A stretch of DNA of 64,000 nucleotides, from the NCBI GenBank assembly GCA_023205875.1, contig CP060767.1, positions 434,001 to 498,000 of the forward strand, given 5' to 3'. This document shows, piece by piece, positions 7,900 through 61,400 of the stretch. Each line of letters begins with the position of its first letter. Position 1 is the first letter of the stretch. This DNA is from Chloropicon primus (Eukaryota; Chlorophyta; Chloropicophyceae; Chloropicales; Chloropicaceae). Position numbers and translations under genes: made by a program. Under the pieces are notes generated by a model, which saw only the letters and a list, made by a program, of their open reading frames with translations, was not told where the DNA came from and did not search any database.

Positions 7900-8497
7900 G
7901 GGATGCGAAACCACGCAACGAGGAAGAAAGACGATGGGCACCAAATGAAACCAAGTACCCTCACGAGGAACGAAAACAGACCTCGCTCGAGCTGGAGAAT
8001 GAAGAACGGAGAACACTTTCCACAAACCACTCTCCCACTCTCCCTTCCTTCTCTCGCTCGCTCGCTCGCACGTTTCTCCTCAAGGGATGCACTGCTTCTA
8101 TCCTGTCGGCACCTCAACCAGGTCTGCTCTTCGATCGTTGAGCGTTGTATTCATCCAAAGTATTGCCTTGAACTCCTCTTCTGCCTTGATGACTCACCGC
8201 TGACTCATCGATGACTTATCTAGCTGCCAGAGGAAGACAAGGAGTTCGCGTTTTAGTATCTAAAAAACTCTCCCGTGTTTCATTCTTTTCAAGTAAACAG
8301 TCAAACGAAAGATCTAGCAATAAGGAATTTATGAGTTCCCCTTTCACGCGCTCTTCGTTTCCTTGATGACCCCTATCTTCCTCGCTACCTCCCTGTTCCC
8401 TCGACAGAGACGACCCAACCCCACGAACCCCTTGATCTCTTGCTTCGGAGGATTTCAGCAACGCACGTCATAAACCAAATCAAAAACCGACAGAAAA
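7900..8497. other. Intergenic region without a recognised gene
   Basis: This is the 5' region of VPS36, lying between it and the repeat array. It holds CTCGCTCG-type simple repeats near 8050-8075 and no reading frame with protein-like composition. The promoter of VPS36 must lie here, but I cannot point to an element. Confidence 0.4.
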
Positions 8498-8876
8498 GTC
8501 GACTTTGCAGTCTGTCGTTGCGTCCATCCATGAAATGAGACACGCACCATCATTATAATATAATATGACAAAAATCCAAAGTCTCTCTCTTTGTCCCCAG
8601 CATCCTGCGCCACGCCCGTCGCTCGTTGGGGATTCCCTCTGACCGCGTCGACCAGCCAATCATGTCGACCCAGACGAACAGTCCATATTTCTTGGCTCGG
8701 GCTTCCTCACATCTCTTGCCTGTGCCACGAGATGCGATGCGAAGAAGAGATCAGGGTTCGCTTGGGTGACTGGGGATTGAGACGAGTGTTGAAGAAGAGG
8801 AAGAAGAAGCCATCAAGTGGTGGTGGTTTGACTTTATATTATAAATGGCACGAAAGCTGATCACGAAAGAATGAGC

Positions 8877-9506
8877 TTACTGCATGGCCTCAGCGGCGGC
8901 CTCCTTGACCTCCTCGGCGGCGGTTCCCCAGCCGATGGCGGACATCAACTGCCCAAGAGCCCACTTGGCCCAGCCCCATCCCTTCTTGGCGGCGTTGATG
9001 AGAGACTTGATCCACTTCTTGTTCAAGTTTCTGGACTCAACCTCCTCGACGGCCTCAAGTCCCAAGATGGCGGCGAAGGTCTCGTCGGTGACGGTCAACT
9101 CAACATCACCAGACTCGACGGAGACGATGGCACCGTCACCCATGATGGTGGTGGTTCTTCCCTCGGTAACGACGGCGTTGACACCCATGACAGCGGTCTT
9201 GTCGCCCAAGTTCAAGGAGACGTCCTTGCAGAGGAAGGATCCAGAGCAAGAGGCCAAGTTAGAGGTTGGGCTGACGGTGGTGGTCAAGACAGCCTGTCCG
9301 TTCTTGGTGGAGAGGGTTCCGTTGGAAACCTTAACCTCCTTGGAGACCTCGTTGGCGAGGATGGTGACTCCGAAGACGGCGGCCAAGCAGGCAACGGTCA
9401 AGACGGAACCGACGACGACGGCGGCCTTCATGCTCTTGACAGAGCCCTCGACGTTGGACAACTGTCCCTTGAGGCTGGACATGGTGGATCTTCTCTCGGA
9501 CTCCAT
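8877..9506 (-). CDS. Single-pass membrane protein, family A copy 1 (cationic tail)
   Basis: The 209-residue product belongs to no family I recognise. Residues 1-27 are a basic/polar cytosolic head (MESERRSTMSSLKG), about 28-51 a strong hydrophobic helix (AAVVVGSVLTVACLAAVF), and about 60-150 a threonine/valine-rich, probably beta-stranded domain with the N-glycosylation sequon NGT. The conserved motif EVESRNL follows. The last ~48 residues open with KKWIK and continue as a Trp- and Lys-rich amphipathic stretch (GWGWAKWALG) before an Ala/Glu-rich end. Absence of a signal peptide and the basic head suggest a type II protein with the tail luminal or outside. Lysine is nearly always AAG and codons mostly end in C, unlike neighbouring genes, which suggests strong expression. 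It is divergent from the copy-1 B gene. Confidence 0.85.
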   Translation of the reverse strand: MESERRSTMSSLKGQLSNVEGSVKSMKAAVVVGSVLTVACLAAVFGVTILANEVSKEVKVSNGTLSTKNGQAVLTTTVSPTSNLASCSGSFLCKDVSLNLGDKTAVMGVNAVVTEGRTTTIMGDGAIVSVESGDVELTVTDETFAAILGLEAVEEVESRNLNKKWIKSLINAAKKGWGWAKWALGQLMSAIGWGTAAEEVKEAAAEAMQ

Positions 9507-9980
9507 TATGATGTTTTGGGTAGGTTTGTTAAGTATTTGTTATTTCGTGTTTGTACGAGAACGTGTTCGTAAAAGTGAGACGATTGCAGGAGCAGGCCCG
9601 GTATATATATGTATCTGGACTGCGAGGGCCGGGGTCCTTTTTATTTCTGGGCAGTTTGATGTGATTTATGATGTTCATTTTTAAGGGGGTAATCGGTAGG
9701 TTGATGGAATATCTTGTTCATTTTTTTCTTTTTGTACGGAAACTGTACTACATTCGGTCGTGGATTTTGCGAGAAAAGGATGACATTTTGCGTCGTTTCG
9801 AGTTATACAATATCATCAGACTACCGATCCAGAAAATATTGAAATACCTCACATCAAACTGCCCAGAAGAATGAAAAGGAGCGTTTTCCAGGGATATATA
9901 CCGGGTCTGCTCCTGCAATCGTCTCACTTTACGAACACGTTCTCGTACAAACACGAAATAACAAATACTTAACAATCATA
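9507..9980. promoter_or_regulatory. Palindromic bidirectional promoter, unit 1
   Basis: The 474 bp between the two start codons form an imperfect inverted repeat. Next to both starts lie AAATAACAAATACTTAACAA-type leaders and CGAGAACGTGTTCGTA, then GTGAGACGATTGCAGGAGCA and a TATA-box-like GGTATATATA about 100 bp from the A start and about 80 bp from the B start. Farther in, both arms carry CTGGGCAGTTTGATGTGA-like sequence. The middle ~200 bp is AT-rich and not repeated. The symmetry predicts equal, strong transcription both ways. Confidence 0.75.
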
Positions 9981-10598
9981 ATGGAGTCCGAGAGAAGATC
10001 CACCATGTCCAGCCTCAAGGGACAGTTGTCCAACGTCGAGGGCTCTGTCAAGAGCATGAAGGCCGCCGTCGTCGTCGGTTCCGTCTTGACCGTTGCCTGC
10101 TTGGCCGCCGTCTTCGGAGTCACCATCCTCGCCAACGAGGTCTCCAAGGAGGTTAAGGTTTCCAACGGAACCCTCACCGCCAAGAACGGACAGGCTGTCT
10201 TGACCACCACCATCAGGCAGACCAACAAGGTGACTGACAACGCTGTCTTCACCACCCTCAACGCCGGCTCTATCACCGCCACCATGAAGATCAACGCCAA
10301 GGTCTACCAGGACGACGCCGTCACTCTCATCTGCGACGATGCCTTCGTTCTCTCCAGCGGAAAGAACACTGAGTTCCTCTTCAAGAAGGACTCCATCTTG
10401 GCCAGCGTTGTCGGTGCCGAGGAGGTTGAGTCCAGAAACCTTTCTGCTGCTCCTCTTGTCTGGGCCATCATCAGAGGTGTTGGCTGGGCTGCCAAAGCTT
10501 GCTGGAGGTCCACCGCGTGCAGAGGTGCCATCTACGAGGCCGCCAGACAGATGGGTGCCTGGGTTCTCGATCAGCTCCCCGATCCACCACAGATGTAA
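9981..10598 (+). CDS. Single-pass membrane protein, family B copy 1 (Cys-containing tail)
   Basis: The 205-residue product shares its first ~77 residues almost exactly with family A: the same basic head, membrane helix and NGT sequon. It then has a different luminal beta-rich domain of similar size, the same EVESRNL motif, and a tail unrelated to A. This tail (SAAPLVWAIIRGVGWAAKACW onward) carries two cysteines six residues apart, aromatic and arginine residues, and ends DPPQM. The likely topology is type II, with the tail outside or luminal. Codon use is as biased as in family A. It is transcribed divergently from A copy 1 and runs tail to tail with A copy 2. Function is unknown. Confidence 0.85.
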   Translation: MESERRSTMSSLKGQLSNVEGSVKSMKAAVVVGSVLTVACLAAVFGVTILANEVSKEVKVSNGTLTAKNGQAVLTTTIRQTNKVTDNAVFTTLNAGSITATMKINAKVYQDDAVTLICDDAFVLSSGKNTEFLFKKDSILASVVGAEEVESRNLSAAPLVWAIIRGVGWAAKACWRSTACRGAIYEAARQMGAWVLDQLPDPPQM

Positions 10599-10601
10599 AT
10601 T

Positions 10602-10978
10602 CGACTTTGCAGTCTGTCGTTGCGTCCATCCATGAAATGAGACACGCACCATCGTTATAATATAATATGACAAAAATCCAAAGTCTCTCTCTTTGTCCCC
10701 AGCATCCTGCGCCACGCCCGTCGCTCGTTGGGGATTCCCTCTGACCGCGTCGACCAGCCAATCATGTCGACCCAGACGAACAGTCCATATTTCTTGGCTC
10801 GGGCTTCCTCACATCTCTTGCCTGTGCCACGAGATGCGATGCGAAGAAGAGATCAGGGTTCGCTTGGGTGACTGGGGATTGAGACGAGTGTTGAAGAAGA
10901 GGAAGAAGAAGCCATCAAGTGGTGGTGGTTTGACTTTATATTATAAATGGCACGAAAGCTGATCACGAAAGAATGAGC
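10602..10978. other. Shared 3' flank between converging B and A genes, unit 2
   Basis: This 375-bp segment is present three times (8498, 10602, 12706) and separates the B stop from the next A stop. It contains TATAATATAATATG and a mirror-like TTATATTATAAATG at its two ends, which could serve as 3'-end signals for the two converging transcripts. No RNA gene is evident. Confidence 0.5.
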
Positions 10979-11608
10979 TTACTTGACGGCTTCAGCGGCG
11001 GCCTCCTTGACCTCCTCGGCGGCGGTTCCCCAGCCGATGGCGGACATCAACTGTCCAAGAGCCCACTTGGCCCAGCCGTATCCCTTCTTGGCGGCGTTGA
11101 TGAGAGACTTGATCCACTTCTTGTTCAAGTTTCTGGACTCAACCTCCTCGACGGCCTCAAGTCCCAAGATGGCGGCGAAGGTCTCGTCGGTGACGGTCAA
11201 CTCAACATCACCAGACTCGACGGAGACGATGGCACCGTCACCCATGATGGTGGTGGTTCTTCCCTCGGTAACGACGGCGTTGACACCCATGACGGCGGTC
11301 TTGTCGCCCAAGTTCAAGGAGACGTCCTTGCAGAGGAAGGATCCAGAGCAAGAGGCCAAGTTAGAGGTTGGGCTGACGGTGGTGGTCAAGACAGCCTGTC
11401 CGTTCTTGGTGGAGAGGGTTCCGTTGGAAACCTTAACCTCCTTGGAGACCTCGTTGGCGAGGATGGTGACTCCGAAGACGGCGGCCAAGCAGGCAACGGT
11501 CAAGACGGAACCGACGACGACGGCGGCCTTCATGCTCTTGACAGAGCCCTCGACGTTGGACAACTGTCCCTTGAGGCTGGACATGGTGGATCTTCTCTCG
11601 GACTCCAT
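10979..11608 (-). CDS. Single-pass membrane protein, family A copy 2
   Basis: This is a near-identical 209-residue copy of the minus-strand gene at 8877, with the same head, membrane helix, NGT sequon, EVESRNL motif and Lys/Trp-rich tail. Visible protein differences are confined to the tail: GYGW replaces GWGW and the end is AVK instead of AMQ. The luminal domain is unchanged, so the few changes gather after the EVESRNL motif. Whether that reflects selection or chance cannot be told from two copies. Confidence 0.85.
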   Translation of the reverse strand: MESERRSTMSSLKGQLSNVEGSVKSMKAAVVVGSVLTVACLAAVFGVTILANEVSKEVKVSNGTLSTKNGQAVLTTTVSPTSNLASCSGSFLCKDVSLNLGDKTAVMGVNAVVTEGRTTTIMGDGAIVSVESGDVELTVTDETFAAILGLEAVEEVESRNLNKKWIKSLINAAKKGYGWAKWALGQLMSAIGWGTAAEEVKEAAAEAVK

Positions 11609-12084
11609 TATGATGTTTTGGGTAGGTTTGTTAAGTATTTGTTATTTCGTGTTTGTACGAGAACGTGTTCGTAAAAGTGAGACGATTGCAGGAGCAGGCC
11701 CGGTATATATATGTATCTGGACTGCGAGGGCCGGGGTCCTTTTTATTTCTGGGCAGTTTGATGTGATTTATGATGTTCATTTTTAAGGGGGTAATCGGTA
11801 GGTTGATGGAATATCTTGTTCATTTTTTTCTTTTTGTACGGAAACTGTACTACATTCGGTCGTGGATTTTGCGAGAAAAGGATGACATTTTGCGTCGTTT
11901 CGAGTTATACAATATCATCAGACTACCGATCCAGAAAATATTGAAATACCTCACATCAAACTGCCCAGAAGAATGAAAAGGGAGCGTTTTCCAGGGATAT
12001 ATACCGGGTCTGCTCCTGCAATCGTCTCACTTTTACGAACACGTTCTCGTACAAACACGAAATAACAAATACTTAACAATCATC
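11609..12084. promoter_or_regulatory. Palindromic bidirectional promoter, unit 2
   Basis: It is the second copy of the bidirectional promoter, with the same two inward TATA-like boxes (GGTATATATA near 11702 and its counterpart near 11998) and the same leaders. It differs from copy 1 by single-base indels (GGGAGCG, CACTTTTACG) and a leader change just before the B start (ATCATCATGG for ATCATAATGG). Confidence 0.72.
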
Positions 12085-12702
12085 ATGGAGTCCGAGAGAA
12101 GATCCACCATGTCCAGCCTCAAGGGACAGTTGTCCAACGTCGAGGGCTCTGTCAAGAGCATGAAGGCCGCCGTCGTCGTCGGTTCCGTCTTGACCGTTGC
12201 CTGCTTGGCCGCCGTCTTCGGAGTCACCATCCTCGCCAACGAGGTCTCCAAGGAGGTTAAGGTTTCCAACGGAACCCTCACCGCCAAGAACGGACAGGCT
12301 GTCTTGACCACCACCATCAGGCAGACCAACAAGGTGACTGACAACGCTGTCTTCACCACCCTCAACGCCGGCTCTATCACCGCCACCATGAAGATCAACG
12401 CCAAGGTCTACCAGGACGACGCCGTCACTCTCATCTGCGACGATGCCTTCGTTCTCTCCAGCGGAAAGAACACTGAGTTCCTCTTCAAGAAGGACTCCAT
12501 CTTGGCCAGCGTTGTCGGTGCCGAGGAGGTTGAGTCCAGAAACCTTTCTGCTGCTCCTCTTGTCTGGGCCATCATCAGAGGTGTTGGCTGGGCTGCCAAA
12601 GCTTGCTGGAGGTCCACCGCGTGCAGAGGTGCCATCTACGAGGCCGCCAGACAGATGGGTGCCTGGGTTCTCGATCAGCTCCCCGATCCACCACAGATGT
12701 AA
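12085..12702 (+). CDS. Single-pass membrane protein, family B copy 2
   Basis: The 205-residue product appears identical to the B copy at 9981. The coding sequence is conserved base for base as far as I compared, more so than the A copies. It has the same type II membrane layout with the EVESRNL motif and two-cysteine tail. It is followed by the third copy of the 3' flank and then by the truncated third unit. Confidence 0.85.
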   Translation: MESERRSTMSSLKGQLSNVEGSVKSMKAAVVVGSVLTVACLAAVFGVTILANEVSKEVKVSNGTLTAKNGQAVLTTTIRQTNKVTDNAVFTTLNAGSITATMKINAKVYQDDAVTLICDDAFVLSSGKNTEFLFKKDSILASVVGAEEVESRNLSAAPLVWAIIRGVGWAAKACWRSTACRGAIYEAARQMGAWVLDQLPDPPQM

Positions 12703-12705
12703 ATT

Positions 12706-13100
12706 CGACTTTGCAGTCTGTCGTTGCGTCCATCCATGAAATGAGACACGCACCATCGTTATAATATAATATGACAAAAATCCAAAGTCTCTCTCTTTGT
12801 CCCCAGCATCCTGCGCCACGCCCGTCGCTCGTTGGGGATTCCCTCTGACCGCGTCGACCAGCCAATCATGTCGACCCAGACGAACAGTCCATATTTCTTG
12901 GCTCGGGCTTCCTCACATCTCTTGCCTGTGCCACGAGATGCGATGCGAAGAAGAGATCAGGGTTCGCTTGGGTGACTGGGGATTGAGACGAGTGTTGAAG
13001 AAGAGGAAGAAGAAGCCATCAAGTGGTGGTGGTTTGACTTTATATTATAAATGGCACGAAAGCTGATCACGAAAGAATGAGCTTACTTGACGGCTTCATC
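12706..13100 (-). pseudogene. Truncated third unit with remnant of a family A gene
   Basis: The 3' flank is complete. The minus-strand A gene survives only as its last codons, followed by a jump to a GGCGGCGGTTC / GATGGCGGAC piece of the same gene, and then unrelated sequence. This marks the right edge of the duplicated block and shows that at least one more unit once existed or began to form. Confidence 0.75.
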
Positions 13101-22461: not shown

Positions 22462-22894
22462 TTAATGGTGAGCTGTTCGCCGAGGCTCAATGATTTTTGA
22501 CAAATCTTTTGCCGTCAGAGGGAATGCCTCTAAGCCGATTATGCCAGACATACCGCCATAGTCCAGAGTGCTGGATCCTTTCTTGCCGGAACCTATACAT
22601 GATATATCGTGCAATTCCCCCTCTAGATCCTTTTCCTTTATGTTTGCGCTCTTTGTTATGAAGTCGGGGTTCACGGAGTATGTGGGCCCCAACAATAATC
22701 CGTTTTCCCGAAAGCCTCCCTCTCTTTCTGCCGTTTGGAAAGATATGATGAGCATCATTCTTGCCGACGTTCTTGGATTTTTGCCAGCGCCGTGGCGTGT
22801 TGCTGCATTGTATATGAACCCATCTCCCAAGTTTAACGAGGGGGTGCACCTCTTGTACTGTTTTTGCAAAACATCTACAAATGGGTCAGTGTCG

Positions 22895-22929
<35 letters not shown>

Positions 22930-23755
22930 GTAATCATCATCATCTCTCGATTGGAAGAGACGGTGACTATCTGGATAAATGAATGTGATCCCATTTTCTT
23001 CTCTAGTAGGCTGTAAAGCAACAAACAAGGAGTAAATCTTCGGCACCCTCATATCCTCGTAGTGCGTTGCATTAAGAATAGTCCATTTGTCGCCACTGCC
23101 ACTTTCAAAATTCCTTTCTAGTTTTCCTCTTGCTCTATCCTTCGTAAGCCCGCAACAGATTGAACAAGCGTCAGCATGCGTGTTCTGAACAGTAGCATTG
23201 CAAGTCTGCAAGACGGACAACTCGACCAGCTTGGCTTTTTCACCCAGTATCCTCTCAAAGATGGGCCTCACTCTAGTCACAATCTTGTTCAAGGCTTTCA
23301 AGACCGGGCCCTGCTCCCGAGGGTCCAGAGGAAAGTCGTACCTTCCTTCGGGGTCTCTCAGATCTTTGGCGTAATACTTGTTCCCAGCAGTTCTCGGAGA
23401 CAATTCCTGGACCAAGTACTCTCTCAGCGTCAGGGCTTCCTTGGTATGTCAAGATTTCTTTCATGTACAAAGCCCCATGGTCGAAGAGCGCTCGGCTTGC
23501 TCGAACGTCGTTCTGCCTCCAGTCCTCCACCGAGTAGTCTCTCCAGCAGTCTTCCTCGTAAAATCTGTCGTAGTACCCTTCGTCCAGACTGTAGTCACAC
23601 CTTTGATGAGGTTTCACTGTCGAGGTTTGCTTGCCCTTTTTATTCCTCGTCGGCGATACTGTGACGAGCAGGAGGAGCACACATGTGCCCACAATGACAC
23701 GCAGGACATTTGAAGACGGAGACTGTGACCTCTTCCAGGCTGCTCCCCCCTTCAT
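22462..23755 (-). pseudogene. PhyH-like Fe(II)/2OG oxygenase, frameshifted paralogue
   Basis: It is a paralogue of the intact gene at 58033. The N-terminus (start 23755) has a membrane helix (VIVGTCVLLLLVTV), then the conserved RCDYSLDEGYYDRFYEEDCW region. The core has the iron motif THADAC and the distal RHGAGKNPRTSARMM (His and 2OG-binding Arg). Compared with 58033, an extra A in CATACCAAGGAAGC near 23450 shifts the frame just after KEILTYQ, and the rest continues in another frame from about 23440 down to 22462. A run of aspartates (GAC repeat near 22890-22925) is inserted in a loop where the paralogue has DFNDDHGDDD. It may be a recent pseudogene or a sequence error; the long open frames on both sides of the shift argue for a young change. 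Confidence 0.7.
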
Positions 23756-24280: not shown

Positions 24281-24310
24281 TGAATTATCAGGCACGTGCC
24301 TGATAATTCA
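24281..24310. promoter_or_regulatory. 30-bp perfect palindrome centred on CACGTG
   Basis: TGAATTATCAGGCAC is followed directly by its exact reverse complement, ending at 24310. The centre is CACGTG, the G-box/E-box core bound by bHLH and bZIP factors in many eukaryotes. It starts four bases after the right arm ends and lies 130 bp upstream of the amine oxidase ATG. It could be an operator-like site or the junction of an inverted rearrangement. Confidence 0.6.
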
Positions 24311-24439
24311 GGGGAATATAACCGCTGTTTAGGTCGTGGGCCGCTTTTCGGTTACGGGGGGCTTTACGGTAAACACCGGGAGGCGCTCGCCGTCCGTCGC
24401 CGGTCCGTCGCCGTTGAACTCCCTTCAGCTCGCTTCAGG

Positions 24440-25897
24440 ATGAACTCCTCCTCCTCCTCCTACAAGGTCATCGTCGTCGGGGCGGGCCTGGCGGGGCTTT
24501 CGTGCGCCTCCAAGCTCCTCGACTCCCTCGCCCCGTCGGACGTGGTCATCGTGGAGGCCCTGGACCGTGCCGGCGGGCGGACGCTCACCTCGTGCCTGCC
24601 AGAAGACGAGCCCGTCGACGTGGGCGCCTGCTGGGTGTGCCCCAGGCAGAAGAACGTGCACCGCCTGTTGCGAGAGCACGGGCTGGACGTCATCGAACAG
24701 CAGACCTCGGGAATTCGCGTCGGAGTGCGAAGCGCGGGCGGGCTCACCGGATGGCTGAGCCGCGCGTTCGGGAGGGAGACCACCACCACCACCACGACGT
24801 TGTTCACGACGCTTCGGGGGCTGCCCGCTTGGGACTTGATCCAGTACGCGCTTCTGACGCGCCGCGTCAACCGCATGGCGAGGGCGATCCCGATCGGGCG
24901 GCCGTGGGACGCCAAAGGCGCCGAGAGGCTGGACTCCTCGTCCGTGATGGCGTGGCTCAAGGAGGAGGGAGCTCCGAACAACTCGACCGCGAGAGGGCTG
25001 ATGGCCGCCACCGTGCAGAGCGTGTTCTGCGCCGACGCCTCCCAGATCTCCATGCTTCTCTTCCTGACCGTCGTCGCAGAGGAGGGCGGCGTGGAGGTCC
25101 TTCTGGAGGAGGCCCAAACGCAGCGCGTCGCCCAGGGCAACGGGACGCTGTCGCGCAGGCTCGCGGCGTCCCTGGTGGAGAGGGGCGTCGAGATCAGGCT
25201 GGGGGCCGAGGTGGTGGAGTGCTCCCACTCGGCGACGGACGGGGCGACCGTCGCGACGAGGGACGGAGCGAGGTTCAGGGGGCGGCGGGTCGTGCTCGCC
25301 GTGCCGCCCCCCGCCCTCGCGGGTCTCTCGCTCGAGCCCAAGCTCGCCGGACCCCTCGGCGCCGAGGTGGCCGCGCAGAGGATGGGCAAGGTCATCAAGG
25401 TGGTCGTCGAGTTCGCCGCGCGTTGGTGGGAGGGCGCGCACTGCGCCATGGTGGACCCCGAGATCCTGACGACCACCCTCGCCTTCGACGTGTCTCCCCT
25501 CCAGGGCCCCCCGCGCCACGTCCTGGCCATCTTCTTCTTCGGCGCCAAGGCCGAGCACTGGAGCGCGACGAAGACTCCGGAGGAGAGAAGGGAGGAGGCG
25601 GTGCGCTGCGCCCGGCTTATGTTTGGCGAGGCGGCCGACCAGGCGCCTTGCGAGGTCGTGGCCTCCGTGGAGGGCGACTGGCCCGCCGTCCCGTTCATCC
25701 GCGGGGGGTACATGTCCTATCCCGTCCTATCCTCCATCACACAGACCAAGTCGTACAGCTCCTCCGTTCCGCAATCTTGCTTGCACTTTGCCAGCACCGA
25801 GAACGCCTCGGCGTGGAGGGGCTACATGGACGGGGCCATCCAGTCAGGCGAGAGGGCGGCCGCGGAGGTCGCCGAGGCGCTCCAAACCACCACGTGA
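24440..25897 (+). CDS. Flavin monoamine-oxidase-like protein, GC-rich
   Basis: The 485-residue product is an FAD-dependent amine oxidase of the MAO/polyamine-oxidase fold. The N-terminus has the dinucleotide motif VIVVGAGLAGLSCASKL, then VVIVEALDRAGGR, and the C-terminus has the FAD-closing ASTENASAWRGYMDGAIQSGERAA. RVVLAVPPPALAG in the middle is typical of the family. I chose the ATG at 24440 (MNSSSSSYK), just before the FAD motif; the frame extends upstream into the palindrome without domain content. The substrate cannot be inferred. The gene has no introns and its GC content (roughly two-thirds by eye, with runs above 70%) is far above the ~50% of its neighbours, which suggests transfer or a different mutational history. 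No targeting signal is obvious. Confidence 0.85.
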   Translation: MNSSSSSYKVIVVGAGLAGLSCASKLLDSLAPSDVVIVEALDRAGGRTLTSCLPEDEPVDVGACWVCPRQKNVHRLLREHGLDVIEQQTSGIRVGVRSAGGLTGWLSRAFGRETTTTTTTLFTTLRGLPAWDLIQYALLTRRVNRMARAIPIGRPWDAKGAERLDSSSVMAWLKEEGAPNNSTARGLMAATVQSVFCADASQISMLLFLTVVAEEGGVEVLLEEAQTQRVAQGNGTLSRRLAASLVERGVEIRLGAEVVECSHSATDGATVATRDGARFRGRRVVLAVPPPALAGLSLEPKLAGPLGAEVAAQRMGKVIKVVVEFAARWWEGAHCAMVDPEILTTTLAFDVSPLQGPPRHVLAIFFFGAKAEHWSATKTPEERREEAVRCARLMFGEAADQAPCEVVASVEGDWPAVPFIRGGYMSYPVLSSITQTKSYSSSVPQSCLHFASTENASAWRGYMDGAIQSGERAAAEVAEALQTTT

Positions 25898-34404: not shown

Positions 34405-37400
34405 TCAAAACGTGACGTGAAAGTTATGCCAAGCAGCTGCTGCGTGGTTCTCGCGCAGCCAATTCCACGCCAGCCTTGGATCCCGGGTCTCCAGAATTTT
34501 ACTATAGAACGAGTTGGCCAATTTCTTGGTGACCCGTGCCAAGTCCTGTGCATCTCCCGCGACTTGCGTGACGTGCCGCAGCTTCGGGCCAATCACCGCA
34601 GCTGCTCCAGACTTCAACAGGTAGGACCTCAGGGGCATTGGTATAGGGTAAGAGCAAACAATGGCCTTTCCAGAGACTTGGCGAGAACTCATGGAGAAGA
34701 CATCCTGAGGCTTGCGGCACTCAAAGGTGCAGACTGTGGTCGTTGCTGGAGTACCCTGTAACGATAATGACAAGGAAGACTTGGATATCGTTTGCGACTC
34801 GCAGTGGACGAGCACTCGGTTCGTCATGCAAATGACCTTGCTTCCAATGGAATGGAAGAAAGCCCCAAAGGTCTTTGGCTCAGGCTCGTGGCTCGGAATG
34901 CCCTGGCCCTCCCTCATTCGAGCGCAATGAGCAACCATTTCTTGGAGAAGATTCTTGGCCTCGGCTGTGCTCTCAACGACGCTAAAGGTTTCTTCTTCGG
35001 ACCACCTGGCCACAAATCCCTCATCTAGCGCAATGCAATCCAAGTGAATCAAGAAGGCGTTGCCCAAGGTCTTCGCCATTTTATCGCTCTCCATAGCCAA
35101 GCAATACTCAGAGGAGAGGACCTTAAGCTCGCACGCTTCGTTTTGCCAACAAGCTTCGTACACACAGCGGCTGCTCAGAGCCTGAACCTCGTGTTGACTC
35201 GTGAAATCCTGGATGCAAACAGCCCCATTCCTCGCAACGGCGGGAGGCGCCTGTGGTGCAGCAGATTTGGTGAGAAAACCGTCTTGCGAGGGCTCCTTCA
35301 TGGTATGGACACCCATGGCATCCACGGCATTCGATACGTGGTTCCTTCCGATGTTTGAATCACCCCCGCGAATGGAGACCTCAGTCTCAGAGAGTTCTGT
35401 ACCCCTAACCAACGCCTCGCACATTTCGTCAAAGCGATCGTCATTACTTTGGATGTACTCGGTGTAGGCTTCTTTCAGCAGGGCAAGCTTGGTTTCGTTC
35501 ACCTCATCAAGCAGGAGGTCGCACCTTTCATCCTCTGGCTGAAATCTGTAGTACTTGCAACTGATGTGGTTCGTAGGATTCTTCAGGTAAGCGGCGATCC
35601 CCTCCATTGTCGAGTGGTCTCTGTCAACACTGGTTGCAGACTCCATTACTGCCAGCATTGTCTCCATCACAGTCTTCTGTTTCGGCGGCATGAGCTCATG
35701 CTTTGGTACCCCGTTCCCCAAGCTCACCACAACCTCCACCCTCTGATCAGGCCAGATGCAACTCGCTTCTTGGAAGCCAATGACAACAGGGTTGTTGCTG
35801 CACAGGGCTCCGTCCTGCAGCAAGAGCTCCTGATTGTGTACGTAGCCCTCCACGTACAAGGGAGCTGCCGTGCTTGCCCTAAGGCTCTGCCACATTGAAA
35901 ATGACGATGTCCCCTCGAGCCCCTGCCCTCCTACCCGGCTCATACGTTCCTTGTAATGCCCATCCCTGTTGGGGGGGGAACTCGTACGTCCGAAGAATGT
36001 ATCCGCAAGGCCTTCAGAGAGAAATAATGTTAGACAGAAGGTTGACGCGGCATGGACAACGTTTCGTCGATGAAGAAGGAGAGTGGGATTTTCTCACCTG
36101 GCAACGTTTGTGAGGGATGCAACGCAAGCGACTCTCGGCCTTCCGAGGGGCGCTAGATTGATCATGGACCTCGAGAACGCACAAAACCTTTCATCGTCGA
36201 CCACGTCTGGTATCTTCGCCCACCTCTTGTAGAAATCTTCCAGCAACTCGTGGTTGTACATGCAGCCCTTAAAGAGTGCCCGAATATTTTGAGTTCCAGC
36301 AATGTAAAGACTGCTCATCTCCGCCACCCAGCCACTGTCGCTGTTCTTGCCTTGCGAGTTCTTGAACACCGTAGTCAGAGTATCGTAGGCCTCCTCGACC
36401 TCTTCGACTCTCATGGCGAGTGCACCTAACCCCATGGCTATGATGCTCCCTGTGCTTGTGCCCACGATCAGATCAAACAAATCACAGATCAGCTTTCCAG
36501 TCTTTCTCTCCATCACTCGGCACATCTCGAGGGCACAACGCCCTTTGGAGCCCCCGCCATCGATCGATAGGATTCTAATACCCCTCCTCTTGCCTGCGAC
36601 AGAATGGAGAATGTCGTCCAACTTCTGGTTTAATCCAAGAATTGCCATCACCCTTAATGCACACCTCACACAAATGCCTGCACTGTCGGAGATTTCCCTT
36701 GACCTTAAGAGGCGCTTCTCCCTCTCCGCCTCCTTCCTTGGGCTCCCGTTCGAACTTTTCTTACCAAGAAGCACCTCAATGCCACGCTCCTTTGCAATGA
36801 ACTTGTTCCCCAAGGAGATCACCATCTCAATGGCATTCAATAAAGCGTCGTTTCCCGCCATCTTCTCCCGGTTTTCCACGCTCAGGGCCAGGTTCCCCAT
36901 GCACTCGAGGGCCTTGCCGCAAATATCCAGGCCGAACAGATTTTCTTTGAACTCAGACTCTGATTTTGGTGCAGACAAGTGAGACACCTTCCGTTCTCGA
37001 GTCATCCATTTCATAGCCTGCTTGCAAGTGATGTTGGCAAGCAAGGTCAATATTGTGTCTGAGAAAATGTGACGAGAAAACTGGTCGGACGTGAATGTGA
37101 TGTGAGACAGCAGCTTTATCCCAGCCTCCTGGTCGATGACTTTCTCTGACCCCAAGAGAGTCGAAACGCATTGCTGCATGTTGTTTTCCAAAAGTCGATC
37201 CATGATGTCGCACTTGCTGAAAGCACTGATCAGGCACTGGCTCGACCTTTTCACTACGTCGACGTCATTGCTTAGGGTCAGAAGCACGAGCTGCTGCAGC
37301 ACGCCCCTCTCCTGGGACGCTACATACTCACAGGCCTCTTTGTCCTCAAACGCCTGTAGAATCGCGGACAGCACAAGAGGATGGGCTTCACTCCTTCCCA

Positions 37401-38526
37401 CGAAGAGGTCAAAGAATGGGATCCATTTGTTTGACAACATTGCCTTCTTCAGCGGTGTCAAAAAGCTAGTAGTCTCGCTGAAGATCGTGGCCACACCCTC
37501 GTACTTGAGTTGGTGAGAATCCAAACAGTCTTCACCGCCACCTGGATGTTCCTCCGCGACGTTTCCCCTGATCACCAAGTTCGCGATGCTCAACTCCTGG
37601 AGCGTCGTGTTGCCTACCAGTGGTGGCAGGTACAGCAGCGAGTTACCTTTCAGAAGGAGCCTCTTCAGCCGAATGAGCTTATTGAAGGGGCAAATAATGG
37701 TAGTAAGTCTGTTGTCCTCCAAGTTCAGAGTCTCGAGCATCATCAGGGTGGACAGGGAAGCTGGCAGCGCCGTCAAAGCGTTGTGGCTTGCTATCAAGAC
37801 CTCCAGTTTTATCAGCTTTCTGACGACCTTGTTTGGCAACTCCACCAGCTTGTTTTGGCTCAGGTTCAGGGACCTAAGCTGCTGACCGAGCTCTCCCAGG
37901 GACTCGGGGAACACCCCAATGCCGCAGCAGCTGCAGTCAAGTTGGGTTAGCCCTGCAAAGGAAAAGTTGTCGATCCACTTGAAGAAACTCAGCTGGGCTC
38001 CCTCCTGCACTCGTATCCTCTGAATGTCCGCAATCTCGCTGTCGCCCAACACCAAGTGCAGGCTAAGGGCTTCGGATCCCGTGCCAAGGGAGTGAAAGGT
38101 CACTGTGTCAAGCTTCGGTTCTCTTGTGGTGGTTTCCAAGGACACCCTCACCGCTTTCTCCTCGCCCCGCTCACTACATGACTCCTGCAGCACGTCTATC
38201 CCCACTGCGACATGCTCAAAGGTGTGCAGAGACTTGCCTAGATCGATGGCAAGCAGCTTCTGCTTCCTGGCCTCCTCGACATGATCGCTGACACACCACT
38301 TGAGCTCGATATCAAGGGTGTCCTCTCCATCCCGGTGGAGACAACGCAAGTCGTGCCGCTCCGCGGATATGTACGACAAGCTCGCCTTGACCAGACTCTT
38401 CTGCTCGGATCCGAGGAATATTTCACTTGCTCGGCGAAGCATTGTGGCACTTGGAGGCCAGGCACCAACAACGAGACTGGAGAGGTCCCAGAAATCTACA
38501 TCCAAACCAACAGCCAAGAGCTTCAC
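34405..38526 (-). CDS. LRR-ARM-patatin phospholipase (plant pPLA-I-like)
   Basis: Patatin-like lipases hydrolyse acyl groups from membrane lipids with a Ser-Asp dyad. This ~1,345-residue protein has leucine-rich repeats at ~200-310 (LRSLNLSQNKLVELP, LETLNLEDNRLTT), an armadillo-like helical region at ~350-620, and a patatin domain: SIDGGGSKG (Asp 656), nucleophile GTSTGS (Ser 691) and the dyad aspartate in LLLQDGALCSNNP. This order is that of plant pPLA-I (At1g61850 type). Exon 1 is 36098-38526 and exon 2 34405-36011, with an 86-bp GT-AG intron. Exon 2 needs a one-base correction in a run of eight G at 35971-35978 to join RTYEFPP to NRDGHYKERMS; as given, the frame breaks there. The 5' start is uncertain. 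Confidence 0.85.
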
Positions 38527-38929
38527 AAGGCTGTGTCCAAAGTATATCCAAGCTCGAAGGCCTTGGCCCTTTCCAGGAGCGAAACACGCGGTCCTTCGCC
38601 CCAGAGGAGAACCACAAAAAGCAACCGGTGAGCACCTCGCCGGCTTCTCGGCAACTTTGCCAGGTCACCAAGGTACCTCCTTGGTTTGTGTGACCTCCTC
38701 TTGACTTTTGTCCTTTTTGCGAACCTCACCGCTTCGTCATTTCTCTCAAGTGAGGACTCAAACGAAAGAGGAAGGGGAAGGGGAAGAAAGATTCTATCTT
38801 TTATTGATGTGCACAGAAAATTGCTTTCCTCTCCTCTCCTCTCCTCTCCTCTCCTCTCTCTCTCCTTCCTTCTGTCTCCTTCTCTTCTGTCTCTTCGGCT
38901 TTCATCAACCACCGATGAGACAGAGAGAC

Positions 38930-39640
38930 AGAGAGAAGGAAGGTTTTGCTCGTGACAATGGAACGGAGAGGGGGGAATTAGGCTTGGCCATCGGGTAAGT
39001 CTTGCTCCTCCTCCCCCTTGATCGCATGAATGAATGCTCTTCTGCTTCCCTGCCCTTGTCTCCTGGTACTTTGGCTTGGAGACAGAGAGAGAGAGAGACA
39101 GAGAGACAGAGAGACAGAGAGAGGAAGGTTTTGCTCGTGACAATGGAACGGAGAGGGGGGAATTAGGCTTGGCCATCGGGTAAGTCTTGCTCCTCCTCCC
39201 CCTTGATCGCATGAATGAATGCTCTTCTGCTTCCCTGCCCTTGTCTCCTGGTACTTTGGCTTGGAGACAGAGAGAGAGAGACAGAGAGACAGAGAGACAG
39301 AGAGAGGAAGGTTTTGCTCGTGACAATGGAACGGAGAGGGGGGAATTAGGCTTGGCCATCGGGTAAGTCTTGCTCCTCCTCCCCCTTGATCGCATGAATG
39401 AATGCTCTTCTGCTTCCCTGCCCTTGTCTCCTGGTACTTTGGCTTGGAGACAGAGAGACAGAGAGACAGAGAGACAGAGAGACAGAGAGAGGAAGGTTTT
39501 GCTCGTGACAATGGAACGGAGAGGGGGGAATTAGGCTTGGCCATCGGGTAAGTCTTGCTCCTCCTCCCCCTTGATCGCATGAATGAATGCTCTTCTGCTT
39601 CCCTGCCCTTCTCTCCTGGTTTTGGCTTAGAGACAGAGAG
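38930..39640. repeat. Four-copy ~184-bp minisatellite upstream of AOX
   Basis: Units repeat at 183-185 bp, with marker ATGs at 38958, 39143, 39326 and 39511. Each unit runs GGAAGGTTTTGCTCGTGACA, a seven-codon mini-frame (ATG GAA CGG AGA GGG GGG AAT TAG), CTTGGCCATCGG, a strong splice-donor match GTAAGT, pyrimidine-rich sequence, and a (GACAGA)n tract of variable length. The last unit ends CTTAG where the others have CTTGG. The array fills most of the shared 5' region between the divergent patatin and AOX genes. Open frames seen through it on the minus strand are repeat-driven and not credited as genes. Confidence 0.9.
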
Positions 39641-58032: not shown

Positions 58033-59361
58033 ATGGGGAAGAAGCACAAGTCAGCGCTGCCTTGGAGCGTTGTCGCCATATCCGTGCTGCTTGTCCTGGT
58101 GACGATCTGGCAGACCACGAGTCTTTTCAGTTCCCAGCAGAAGGCGAGCGAGAGACCCCCAGTACCACCACCGGTATCCACTGCAAACTTCCCAGGAGTA
58201 CCACAGAGGTGTGACTACAACCTGGACGAAGGGTACTACTTAAAGTTCTACGAGGACAAGTGCTGGAGAGACTACTCGGTGGAGGACTGGAAGGAGAACC
58301 CTGCAAGAGCAAGCCGAGCGGTCTTCGACCATGGGGCTTTGTACATGAAAGAAATCTTGACATACCAGGAAGCCCTGACGCTGAGAGAGTACTTGGTCCA
58401 GGAATTGTCTCCGAGAACTCTTGCTGGGAACAAGTATTACACCAAAGATCTGAGAGACCCCGAAGGAAGGTACGACTTTCCTCTGGACCCTCTGGAGCAG
58501 GGTCCGGTGTTGGAAGCCTTGAACAAGGTTGTGGATAGAGTGGGGCCCATCTTTGAGAGGATACTGGGTGAAAAAGCTGAGCTGGTCGAGTTGTCCGTCT
58601 TGCAGACTTGCAATGCCACTGCTCAGAACACGCATAGTGACACGTGCACCATCTGCTGCGATGCTCAGGACACCTATCGGGACAGAATGGGAGAAATAGA
58701 TAGGACTTTCGAAGCCGGTGGCCAAACCATGGCGGTTTTGAACGCAGGGCACTACGAGAATGTGAATGTGCCCAAGAGTTACTCTCTGTTTCTTCCCATG
58801 CAGCCTACTGGGGTAAAGAATGGCGTCACGAACACTTACCCGGGGTCTCATCGGTTGCTGCCATGGAAAACGGTAGAAGACTTCAACGACGATCACGGTG
58901 ACGACGACTTTCTGGAGCACTACGAGAGGTGCAACCCCTCGTTGAACATGGGGGATGGATTCATCTACAACTCAAGAACCCTTCACGCCGCTGGCAGGAA
59001 TCCAACCCCCTCGGCAAGAATGATGTTCATGCTCTCTTTTCAAGCGGTTGATGACTACGGGGAGAACGGATTGTTGTTTGGTTCCTCATACTCCCTTCAA
59101 AAGAAATGGCAGACGCTCCTTCCCGTGGTGCTCAAGCGCTTGAAAGCGAAACATTATGACATATCATGCTATCGAGACGATGTGCAAGCCAGGAGTGCTG
59201 CTTACATGAAGACCTTGAAGAACGAGGAGAGGAACGAGCTCATGCGTCGACGAGGGAAGGACAAGGAGGCTATTGTTCTGTCAGTTGTGAAGGGAAAGTT
59301 GAAATTGAAAGATTTTCCACTGTCCGTGGCAAAATTAAGAAAGATAGCACAGATTACTTGA
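58033..59361 (+). CDS. PhyH-like Fe(II)/2OG oxygenase, type II membrane protein (intact paralogue)
   Basis: The 442-residue product has a basic head (MGKKHKSALPW), a membrane helix at about 11-31 (VVAISVLLVLVTIW) and a luminal phytanoyl-CoA-dioxygenase-type core. It shows the iron motif THSDTC, the distal histidine in TLHAAGRNP, and Arg in SARMMFMLSFQ for 2-oxoglutarate. Cysteine-rich phrases (RCDYNLDEGYY, DKCWRDYS, CTICC) suggest disulfides. It is the uninterrupted relative of 22462-23755, with long stretches of near identity (DHGALYMKEILTYQ, KDLRDPEGRYDFPLDP). It lacks the hairpin array of the island and the poly-Asp insert. A role in hydroxylating a secreted protein or lipid is inferred. 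The stop is 182 bp from the converging GT29 gene. Confidence 0.85.
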   Translation: MGKKHKSALPWSVVAISVLLVLVTIWQTTSLFSSQQKASERPPVPPPVSTANFPGVPQRCDYNLDEGYYLKFYEDKCWRDYSVEDWKENPARASRAVFDHGALYMKEILTYQEALTLREYLVQELSPRTLAGNKYYTKDLRDPEGRYDFPLDPLEQGPVLEALNKVVDRVGPIFERILGEKAELVELSVLQTCNATAQNTHSDTCTICCDAQDTYRDRMGEIDRTFEAGGQTMAVLNAGHYENVNVPKSYSLFLPMQPTGVKNGVTNTYPGSHRLLPWKTVEDFNDDHGDDDFLEHYERCNPSLNMGDGFIYNSRTLHAAGRNPTPSARMMFMLSFQAVDDYGENGLLFGSSYSLQKKWQTLLPVVLKRLKAKHYDISCYRDDVQARSAAYMKTLKNEERNELMRRRGKDKEAIVLSVVKGKLKLKDFPLSVAKLRKIAQIT

Positions 59362-59543: not shown

Positions 59544-61400
59544 CTAGGCAGAATCACCTTCATCTACGATCTGTTCCTCTTCGATGGCGTCACTACTGTC
59601 GCTGCTTCCGATCACATCCGTATCATTATCTGTGCTCGTGCTCTCATCCACTTCCACTTCCTCTTCTTCCTCCCCATCCAAAACCTCCTCATCAAGAGCA
59701 TTTCCGCCATCACTTCCCTCGTCCTCGTCCCCGCCATCATCATCGTCGTCGTTTTTTTTGCCGTCATCATCATCCGTACTCTCCTGTTGACCATTCCTTG
59801 CCACCTCCAAAGGGGGGACCTGACTCTCCCAAGCGCCGTGACTCTCCTTCAAGTCCTCGGAAACCATGTGGTTAACATACTCTTCACCCGTTACGACCTT
59901 CCCCATGGGCCACTGGGCCTCTTCCCTCCAAGCAAGCCACTGCTGATCTTTGTACGCAACATCGTTGATCGATTGCAGGAGCTCCTCGAAGCGAACAGTC
60001 TCTCTCGTGTCCCTGCCGTACTGGTTCGTGTTGGGCTCCACTTTGTCATAGTAGTGGTAAGGTATCTTTTGATGCCTCCAGTCTTTCTGGTACCCAAAGA
60101 GCGTGATTTGCGTGCAGATGAGGTGGGCCAGGGCAATCCCATAAAAACCGTTAGAAGGCGCCCCATCGTTGTGCAAGTTCAGCACGTAGTACTGGAAGAA
60201 CGGGTCGATGACCTTCAAGTTCGGCAACACGTCCCTGAGCGACGCCCGTTCCGATATCTTGAACAATTGCTTGAAGTTCTTCGAGTTGGTGATGTGCTGA
60301 AGGACCGTCTCATTCGTGTGCTTCTCGTGAAAGAAGAAGTGCTCCGAATTCGTCACCCGAAACGAAGTTCTGCTCCCAACATGCTTCTCGAACCCCACAG
60401 TGGGCCCCCCGTTGAACCGAATCACCGTGTCGTGGGCGTCGATGTACTTGCCATACTCCTTGAGCAGAGTCCCGCCCCCGTTGCCTACGACTGCGCACGT
60501 TCCAAACTTGTTTTTCGATCTTCGAAGTCTTTCCTTGATGAAGTCTGTGGCCGGGAAGACCTTGAGCGCCTTGTTGTTCACCTGGCCGACCACTTGCCAC
60601 TTTATGTGCTTGCAGATATTGTTTCCCCTCATGTGGAGCGGCCAGTACTTTGGCACTTTGAAGTTCGACCTGCAGCAAGGTGTATCAGGAAATCGCATCG
60701 CTGGTCAGCAAAAGGAGCGCGTCAAGAAGAATCAGGTGCAGGCCTTGATTCACGCACGCTCTCACATACCTGTAACGGTGTTCATCCTTGGCAGAAACGA
60801 AGCTGTCGTTGAACGGACGAGCCACTCTCTCCTCCAAGGAGGTTACCGAGCACTTCTCCTCATACGGGTCTTTTATGGCAAAGGTTGGATTGCTGCTTCT
60901 GTGGTGTTCAAGATCTTTCGCGGTCCCTGGGTGCAGCCCACTCACTTTCTTCGTGCTCGTGGACGAGGAAGACGCGCTGCTCGAGGACGCCGGCCCCCCC
61001 ACCGGTGCAGAGACGCTCTGCACATCAGCCACCTTCTTCTTCTTGTGCTCCTCCTTCAGTTTCTTGACCTTCGTGTTAAGCTCCTTGTACGTGAACTCCC
61101 CATTGACCGAGATCTTCTGCTCTTGAAGCTTCTCCTTGCCCCAGAACCGCTCGTCCACATGAAAGTGCTGTCCACTCGTGTTAAGGTTGTGTGCATGGTT
61201 CACCAGAGTATCGTGGGCAAAAAATATGCCGACGGTCACCAGAGTCACTGAAGAAATGCAAGAGCAAAGCAGACCATCAGTCTCTCGCACACCACCTTGG
61301 GACTTGGAGACCCCACTTTCTTTCTGTGGTCCCTACACTTACCTAACAAGTAAATGATCAAGCGGCGAGGTGCCAAATCAGAAGAGTCGAACCGGACCAT
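59544..61400 (-). CDS. GT29 sialyltransferase-like glycosyltransferase
   Basis: Three exons (61343-61400, 60770-61247, 59544-60669) with GT-AG introns of 95 and 100 bp give 553 residues. The first join is telling: it completes the membrane anchor RLIIYLLVTLVTVGIFFAH of a type II Golgi enzyme. A Lys/Ser-rich stem follows, then sialyl motif L (CAVVGNGGGTLLKEYG, about 237-285), motif S (PSNGFYGIALAHLICTQITLFGY, about 345-370) and a VS-like HYYDKVEPN near 382. The last ~90 residues are an Asp/Glu/Ser-rich tail not usual for the family. GT29 enzymes use CMP-sialic acid or, in plants and algae, CMP-Kdo or related donors; the donor here is unknown. Confidence 0.88.

Follow-up and report, generated by a model that had tools for sequence, protein, structure and literature searches.

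Constant-head, variable-tail genes in the green alga Chloropicon primus: a family of possible membrane-anchored precursors of hypervariable peptides

We describe a gene family of the marine picoalga Chloropicon primus RCC138 that came to light in a 64,000-nucleotide stretch of its genome (C14:434001-498000, hereafter the window), where four uninterrupted open reading frames (ORFs) form two head-to-head pairs (A1/B1 and A2/B2) within a tandem repeat of about 2.1 kb (2102-2104 bases). All four ORFs, two A and two B, lie as an earlier, sequence-only reading of the window had claimed, and they are part of a family that numbers at least 18 genes, in which a near-identical head is joined through a homologous middle domain and an E-x-R motif to a tail that mostly differs from type to type. 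Based on these sequence features, we propose, tentatively and at slightly short of an even chance, that the family consists of membrane-anchored precursors of hypervariable effector peptides.

The genome (17,584,162 bases in 20 contigs) was searched with the A and B proteins and with two further queries from which residues 1-58 had been removed. Beyond the genes reported here these queries gave only short fragments, and all counts are lower bounds. The genes lie in five clusters, with four on C14, five on C1, four each on C3 and C13 and one on C16, and by middle domain and tail they fall into eight types, the Greek names of which are coined here: A, B, alpha (C1_1), zeta (C16_1), beta (C1_2, C3_4, C13_3), gamma (C1_3, C3_2, C13_2), delta (C1_4, C3_1, C13_1) and epsilon (C1_5, C3_3, C13_4). 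Thus the possibility left by the sequence-only reading, that no other tail is carried by the same head, is disproved. The clusters on C1, C3 and C13 are segmental duplicates and bear a methyltransferase gene as well, with weak PRMT-type matches in the one protein scanned, that of C1. In C13_1 (L011:2140-2661) the head and the middle domain are intact, while the frame is disturbed within the first tail codons just past the motif and the tail is lost. Alignment A1 holds 16 of the 18 members (without B2 and C13_1), alignments A2 and A3 hold 15 (without genes A2, B2 and C13_1) and alignment A4 holds 13 (without genes A2, B2, C3_1, C13_1 and C13_2).

The head is constant and near-identical in all 18 genes. 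Residues 1-27 carry a net charge of +2 and are followed by a hydrophobic helix, the hydrophobic stretch peaking at residues 29-47 with a Kyte-Doolittle mean of 2.48, and an NGT sequon stands at residue 62 in every gene. By the positive-inside rule, the positive N-terminal side of such a helix stays in and the C-terminus is luminal or outside. From charge and hydropathy, the head is thus predicted to be a type II signal anchor of this orientation. The proposal of about 77 nearly constant N-terminal residues stands, as A and B are identical at residues 1-65 and at 75 of residues 1-77. At the DNA level the shared sequence sets in about 70 nucleotides (nt) upstream of the ATG, within the 5' leader, and is lost close to codon 77. 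By eye, each of the 18 genes has a conserved leader preceded by a TATA-like element; in the A1-B1 intergenic region the TATA-like element lies about 80-105 nt upstream of each ATG and the leader reads CTCACTTT(T)ACGAACACGTTCTCGTACAAACACG. Farther upstream the promoters differ between C14 and the other clusters. 

In codons 1-63 of eight representatives, only 0-2 synonymous and 0-3 other changes are found, while of the 22-48 residues that are identical in the aligned middle region, 3-12 are encoded by different codons. Three synonymous positions vary among the 18 genes in codons 1-65, and one of the markers, at codon 31, occurs in all four C14 genes and in no others. The middles of A and B are identical at 31 of 82 residues, and those of A and the remaining types at 25-34. 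Because A and B have the codon-31 marker in common, although their middles resemble each other no more than they resemble those of other types, conversion of the heads within the cluster is indicated. Judged by these comparisons, the heads are homogenised at the DNA level, and the near-identity of head and leader is kept by recombination and purifying selection.

The region from head to motif had been described as completely different between A and B, or swapped, and this description has to be given up. The middle regions (residue 78 to the motif) are homologous in all eight types, being recognised by leave-one-type-out hidden Markov models (HMMs) with expectation values (E) of 1e-14 to 3e-29 and scores of 40-87 bits, where the best of up to 500 shuffles reached 8-13 bits. 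It is thus one diverged domain of about 75-85 residues, with one Cys in 16 of the 18 genes and two, elsewhere in the domain, in both A genes. The domain, presumed luminal, is predicted by modelling to be beta-rich: the AlphaFold model is poor (predicted local distance difference test, pLDDT, 42; predicted template modelling score, pTM, 0.26) and gives only the hint of a helix at 25-45, strands within 58-139, a helix at 141-147 and helices in the tail. The domain ends at the motif [VML]E[KSTAL]R, the next residue being S, N or H, in 18/18 genes, with E and R as invariant columns among the 16 aligned members. The conserved EVESRNL of the sequence-only reading is indeed carried by A and B, and it is the A/B form only of this wider E-x-R motif. 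Homology between the types breaks at E-x-R, the middle being conserved before it and the tails mostly unrelated after it.

The tails are 42-64 residues long in the 17 intact genes. With the same leave-one-type-out approach, the tails of six of the eight types do not outscore their best shuffle (among up to 500), and only those of epsilon (52.9 vs 5.9 bits) and, narrowly, beta (10.2 vs 7.5) are recognised, via a common C-terminal half. Their composition is also their own. Tryptophan (W) accounts for 28 of 419 tail residues and for none of 1216 in head plus middle (one representative per type, eight types), and the number of tail Cys is 0, 2 or 4 in the 17 intact genes and one in C13_1, where the frame is disturbed. 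The net tail charge ranges from -7 to +8 and is anticorrelated with the charge of the stretch from residue 53 to the motif (r -0.77, exact one-sided p 0.013, eight types, without C13_1), an analysis prompted by the same relation in frog precursors as given in part of PMC7106915. As helices the tails are mildly amphipathic (combined p 0.004).

The tails have also mostly changed fast. Between the tandem units of the window there are 11 substitutions and two indels over 2.1 kb, and seven of the 11 substitutions fall in the 153-nt A tail (of 2102 nt; p 2.7e-6 against a uniform spread) and none in B, the flanks of the A tail showing 0/150 differences on the 5' side and 0/250 on the 3' side. Between C1 and C3, 22/129 nt differ in the gamma tails, 24/147 in delta and 14/174 in epsilon, compared with 5/204, 0/225 and 5/219 in the respective middles, 40/1607 and 19/614 in non-coding DNA and 19/1155 in the methyltransferase gene. 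Between C1 and C13 the tail differences are 37/129 (beta), 3/132 (gamma), 2/146 (delta) and 11/174 (epsilon), with 24/1628 and 20/617 in non-coding DNA, and between C3 and C13 they are 26/146 (delta), 20/129 (gamma) and 5/143 (beta), with 46/1870 in non-coding DNA. In these comparisons stretches that pair different types (C1_2 on L010, C3_3 on L011) were dropped. Same-type tail divergence between clusters thus exceeds that of non-coding DNA 2- to 19-fold in 7 of 10 comparisons. Moreover, nonsynonymous change is denser in the tail than in the middle, with p < 0.05 in 9 of 11 within-type pairs, which are not independent of one another (C13_1 and the B pair left aside; Fisher tests on fractional counts cut to whole numbers), and the three epsilon tail pairs show 14, 11 and 12 nonsynonymous versus 0 synonymous differences. 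Because strong codon bias lowers synonymous change, the case rests on the comparison with middles and non-coding DNA and not on the ratio of nonsynonymous to synonymous change (dN/dS) alone.

The codon bias itself, called extreme in the sequence-only reading, is borne out by the counts. Within the family the effective codon number runs from 24.8 to 34.4, while nine other window genes lie at 40-57 and eight light-harvesting segments at 25.9-45.7. Measured against the light-harvesting set, family genes reach codon adaptation values of 0.56-0.74 over their whole length and 0.46-0.71 after codon 77, compared with 0.25-0.52 for window genes and 0.54-0.87 for the light-harvesting set itself. This reference set comprises 8 of 12 loci, four having been dropped because they lack the motif, and some sequence in it is counted twice (L028 and L029 are the same gene, L021 and L023 have the same start).

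The picture of a constant anchor with variable cargo behind a possible cleavage site is supported by the eight tail types, by the homology break at E-x-R and by tails that have a composition of their own and mostly change fast, and it is corrected in one part, namely that the luminal domain is conserved. Based on the precursor model, the helix would insert the protein into the secretory membrane, with a high output as implied by the strong codon bias, and the acidic middle domain would hold the amphipathic tail inert, as a pro-piece or an intramolecular chaperone. The precursor is probably cut after E-x-R, where a protease would act after the Arg and release the peptide. The freed, disulfide-stabilised peptide would then act on the membranes of bacteria, competitors, grazers or viruses, and counter-adaptation of these targets would drive the tail changes. 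The effector peptides are probably antimicrobial or antagonistic.

Two animal systems provide parallels. In BRICHOS-related precursors of polychaetes, which come closest in layout, as portrayed in sections of PMC10745061, a short N-terminal piece is followed by a folded luminal domain of about 100 residues, a basic site and a C-terminal peptide; 5 of 13 Heteromastus precursors have a membrane helix, and the C-terminal peptides vary in length and fold, with or without Cys. The order of parts is the same in the Chloropicon family, which is likewise a predicted type II membrane proprotein with a C-terminal region (helix at about 29-47, positive N-side), whereas the cleavage site Lys/Arg-Arg of the BRICHOS precursors is replaced by E-x-R. 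BRICHOS is known from 11 metazoan phyla and has two conserved Cys and one Asp, according to a portion of PMC10182729. Membership in BRICHOS is rejected, since the model gives no match at E 10 (15 of 18 members, 13 middle domains) and the conserved Cys pair is absent; an Asp is invariant in the 16 aligned members, but the two Cys of the BRICHOS type are not. The other parallel is offered by the temporin/brevinin precursors of frogs, for which excerpts of PMC7106915 describe a conserved N-terminus, an acidic pro-piece and a hypervariable C-terminal peptide under positive selection, the charges of pro-piece and peptide being negatively related. The Chloropicon family resembles them in its conserved N-terminal part, its hypervariable C-terminal tail and the charge anticorrelation between pro-region and tail, and differs from them in that the cleavable signal peptide and the acidic pro-piece give way to what is predicted to be a type II anchor and to a conserved domain some 75-85 residues long. 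The family would work in the manner of the BRICHOS or frog antimicrobial-peptide precursors and is a member of neither, and no sequence homology to known antimicrobial precursor families is found in Pfam or among PDB sequences.

Several observations weigh against our proposal. Three of the ten tail comparisons are not clearly above non-coding DNA, namely C1_3/C13_2 (3/132) and C1_4/C13_1 (2/146), both against 24/1628, and C3_4/C13_3 (5/143 against 46/1870); C3_4/C13_3 (p 0.56) and C1_3/C13_2 (p 0.67) also show no tail excess over the middle, and the B1 and B2 tails are identical. Synonymous change is raised in the tails of C1_4/C3_1 (4.8/30.8 sites), C1_2/C3_4 (12.2/27.2) and C1_2/C13_3 (9.3/25.0), and older, unconverted or exchanged sequence rather than selection may explain part of the tail excess. 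The amphipathicity of single tails is weak, with p < 0.05 in one of eight types by mean moment and two of eight by maximum, and the tail of C1_1 (net -7) and two delta tails (0 and -2) are unlike typical cationic antimicrobial peptides. The type II topology is based on charge and hydropathy alone, and the structure model is of the low quality given above. Moreover, E-x-R is dibasic in the K-R members only, and a search of the genome for a kexin-type protease that could cut there, with S8 and P domains encoded in the same ORF, gave none, although a gene split by introns could have escaped it. The only P-domain match, a P_proprotein-like stretch at C13:403753-404115 (L033), belongs to a 450-residue ORF with a signal-like start; no S8 match is listed on C13, and S8 matches occur at ten other places. 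Classical kexin/furin processing is thus unsupported.

That no such protease was found, together with a motif that is monobasic in many members, also speaks for a different account, in which the proteins are uncleaved type II surface proteins with a variable C-terminal tip that meets outside partners, for the avoidance of viruses or grazers, for mating or self-recognition, or for adhesion, E-x-R being the structural end of the domain. The same anatomy and tail evolution fit this account, high codon bias suits an abundant coat protein, and possible sexual reproduction is discussed in a part of the genome paper (PMC6731263). What it accommodates less readily is the separate composition of the tails, which hold all W of the representatives and even Cys numbers in intact genes, and the stop of homology at one motif, both of which suit a detachable unit, while the charge balance between pro-region and tail suits a masked peptide. 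We regard uncleaved surface proteins, the main rival of our proposal, as somewhat unlikely. It is noted that this account and the precursor model are both models of conflict or recognition. Given the nonsynonymous excess in the tails, an effector or recognition peptide is more likely than a structural protein, which the sequence-only reading had also considered.

A further account requires no functional selection on the tails, with gene conversion homogenising heads, leaders and flanks while sparing or exchanging the tails, or with a local mutational process. The strong homogenisation of the heads fits it, as do the raised synonymous change in the three tail pairs named above and the partly shared halves of the beta and epsilon tails, which suggest exchange. 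The epsilon tails, with 11-14 nonsynonymous and 0 synonymous differences, including several two-base changes within one codon, speak against it, and so do the motif kept in 18/18 genes and the tail frame and even Cys number kept in 17/18. Conversion would also have to halt near the motif and again at the stop codon, because the 3' flanks are nearly identical in C14_1/C14_3, C1_4/C3_1 and C1_3/C3_2 (0/250, 2/234 and 6/249 differences, respectively, in the first 250 nt), an argument limited by the flanks of C1_5/C3_3, C1_5/C13_4, C1_2/C3_4 and C1_2/C13_3, which are wholly unalike. As to the mutational process, the tail changes in the pairs compared involve all four bases, unlike adenine-targeted hypermutation; targets of such hypermutation or of a diversity-generating retroelement are rejected on this ground, with no template search made. 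Overall, we consider this account improbable. More improbable still is a middle domain folded as a beta-jellyroll of LptA/LptC type that binds lipids or peptides, the proteins being tethered carriers of amphipathic ligands with regulatory tails. A short stretch of the middle domain does weakly resemble LptA (OstA-type beta-jellyroll) above shuffled controls, which makes it a lead: the middle profile scores 26.2 against 81 LptA sequences, all at least 80% identical to that of Escherichia coli, where the best of 120 column shuffles gives 18.4 (46% identity over 37 columns, match probability 21%), and a single LptA gives 22.2 against 18.8 in 150 shuffles. The low-confidence model shows consecutive short strands, and LptC also has one N-terminal helix. 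With LptC itself there is no signal (15.2, where four other E. coli proteins score 10.4-15.4), and LptA was picked by eye, a choice for which the comparison is uncorrected. Furthermore, neither a Pfam LptD_N match in the genome nor a PDB match is obtained at E 10, the Pfam and PDB sequence searches are not significant, the cellular setting differs from that of LptA/LptC, and the evolution of the tails would be left unexplained.

The searches for relatives agree with the claim of the sequence-only reading that no described family has such a layout, as no whole-protein match to a known family was found in Pfam or among PDB sequences. In Pfam only weak matches and no convincing family appeared up to E 10 (15 of 18 whole members and 13 middle domains), and among PDB sequences a single protein gave two chance-level matches (E 0.077 and 7.7) and the profiles none at E 10. 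The best Pfam match was to BapA_N (BapA prefix-like domain), with E 0.003 in 3 of 13 middle domains and 0.0077 in 3 of 15 whole proteins. IMG/VR contigs, scanned with one protein and with the alignment, and GTDB genomes yielded no relative, in scans that were seeded by a few short peptide patterns and that distant kin can escape; on this basis a viral or bacterial origin is rejected. The collections searched contained no eukaryotic proteomes, and other algae may hold relatives. In the literature on Chloropicon or Chloropicophyceae peptides we found no description of the family, and the section on genome and gene families of PMC6731263 (2019) does not name it among the largest ones.

The features of the locus are collected in Table 1. 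The third copy of the shared 3' block is followed by no A gene, nor by any other gene. Fragments of the B tail end plus 3' block also occur at C14:415014-415248 (L014:3014-3248) and C14:513452-513592, 97% and 99% identical, the first about 28 kb ahead of the cluster and the second about 66 kb beyond it, as if short pieces had been copied into distant breaks, and a piece of head coding sequence (69 columns, 94% identical) lies at an unrelated site of chromosome 2 (C2:229595-229661; L013:2595-2661).

Table 1. Features of the A/B gene cluster, in window positions.
Feature	Position	Strand	Description	Basis
Gene A1	8877..9506	-	209 aa; head 9276-9506, middle domain 9030-9275, tail 8877-9029 including stop	ORF, family match, alignment
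Gene B1	9981..10598	+	205 aa; head 9981-10211, middle domain 10212-10436, tail 10437-10598 including stop	ORF, alignment
Gene A2	10979..11608	-	209 aa; tandem copy of A1; tail 10979-11131 with 7 nt differences, remainder of gene with 1 nt	
Gene B2	12085..12702	+	205 aa; tandem copy of B1 with identical coding sequence (0 codons differ); tail 12541-12702	
VESR motif of A1	9030..9041	-	homologous region ends here; candidate cleavage site	
VESR motif of B1	10425..10436	+		
VESR motif of A2	11132..11143	-		
VESR motif of B2	12529..12540	+		
A1-B1 divergent promoter and 5' leaders	9507..9980		inverted repeats; inverted self-match 69%	
A2-B2 divergent promoter	11609..12084		nearly identical to 9507-9980	
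Shared 3' block	8495..8881, 10597-10986, 12701-13090		3' flanks of B and A, with ATAATAT-type elements	

Elsewhere in the window there are a gene with leucine-rich repeats and a patatin-like phospholipase domain (34405-38526, minus strand), the patatin domain lying in two frames and probably split by an intron, and two related PhyH-type dioxygenase-like genes 35 kb apart (22462-23415, minus strand, and 58033-59361, plus strand). A sialyltransferase (GT29) gene (59544-60698, minus strand) comes from a large family in Chloropicon primus, given as 59 members in a part of PMC6731263. A flavin amine oxidase gene (24296-25897, plus strand) lies in a stretch of 65% G+C, compared with 48-53% in its neighbours, and a repeated unit (MRSRGRRSKTYPMAKPNSPLSVPLS...) in open frames at 38523-39580 (minus strand) is minisatellite-like rather than a gene. 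At five of six contig ends examined, CCTAAA or TTTAGG is present in 10-67 copies, and it is missing from one end of C1.

Finally, we note what the family may mean. A recombining, codon-biased family with tails that mostly outpace the nearby non-coding DNA marks molecular conflict, and the eight types of defined peptides of 42-64 residues are open to synthesis and testing. That picoplanktonic green algae possess a multi-gene arsenal of diversifying W-rich peptides, with a homogenised anchor, a chaperone domain of new or LptA-like fold and a non-kexin cut at E-x-R, is a proposal that we hold to be unlikely in its full form; under it, a unicellular relative of plants would have a hypervariable ribosomal defence system convergent with the BRICHOS peptides of metazoans. 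If the precursor model is true, the plan of a constant precursor with a hypervariable peptide would have originated independently here, with a folded domain where animals have BRICHOS.

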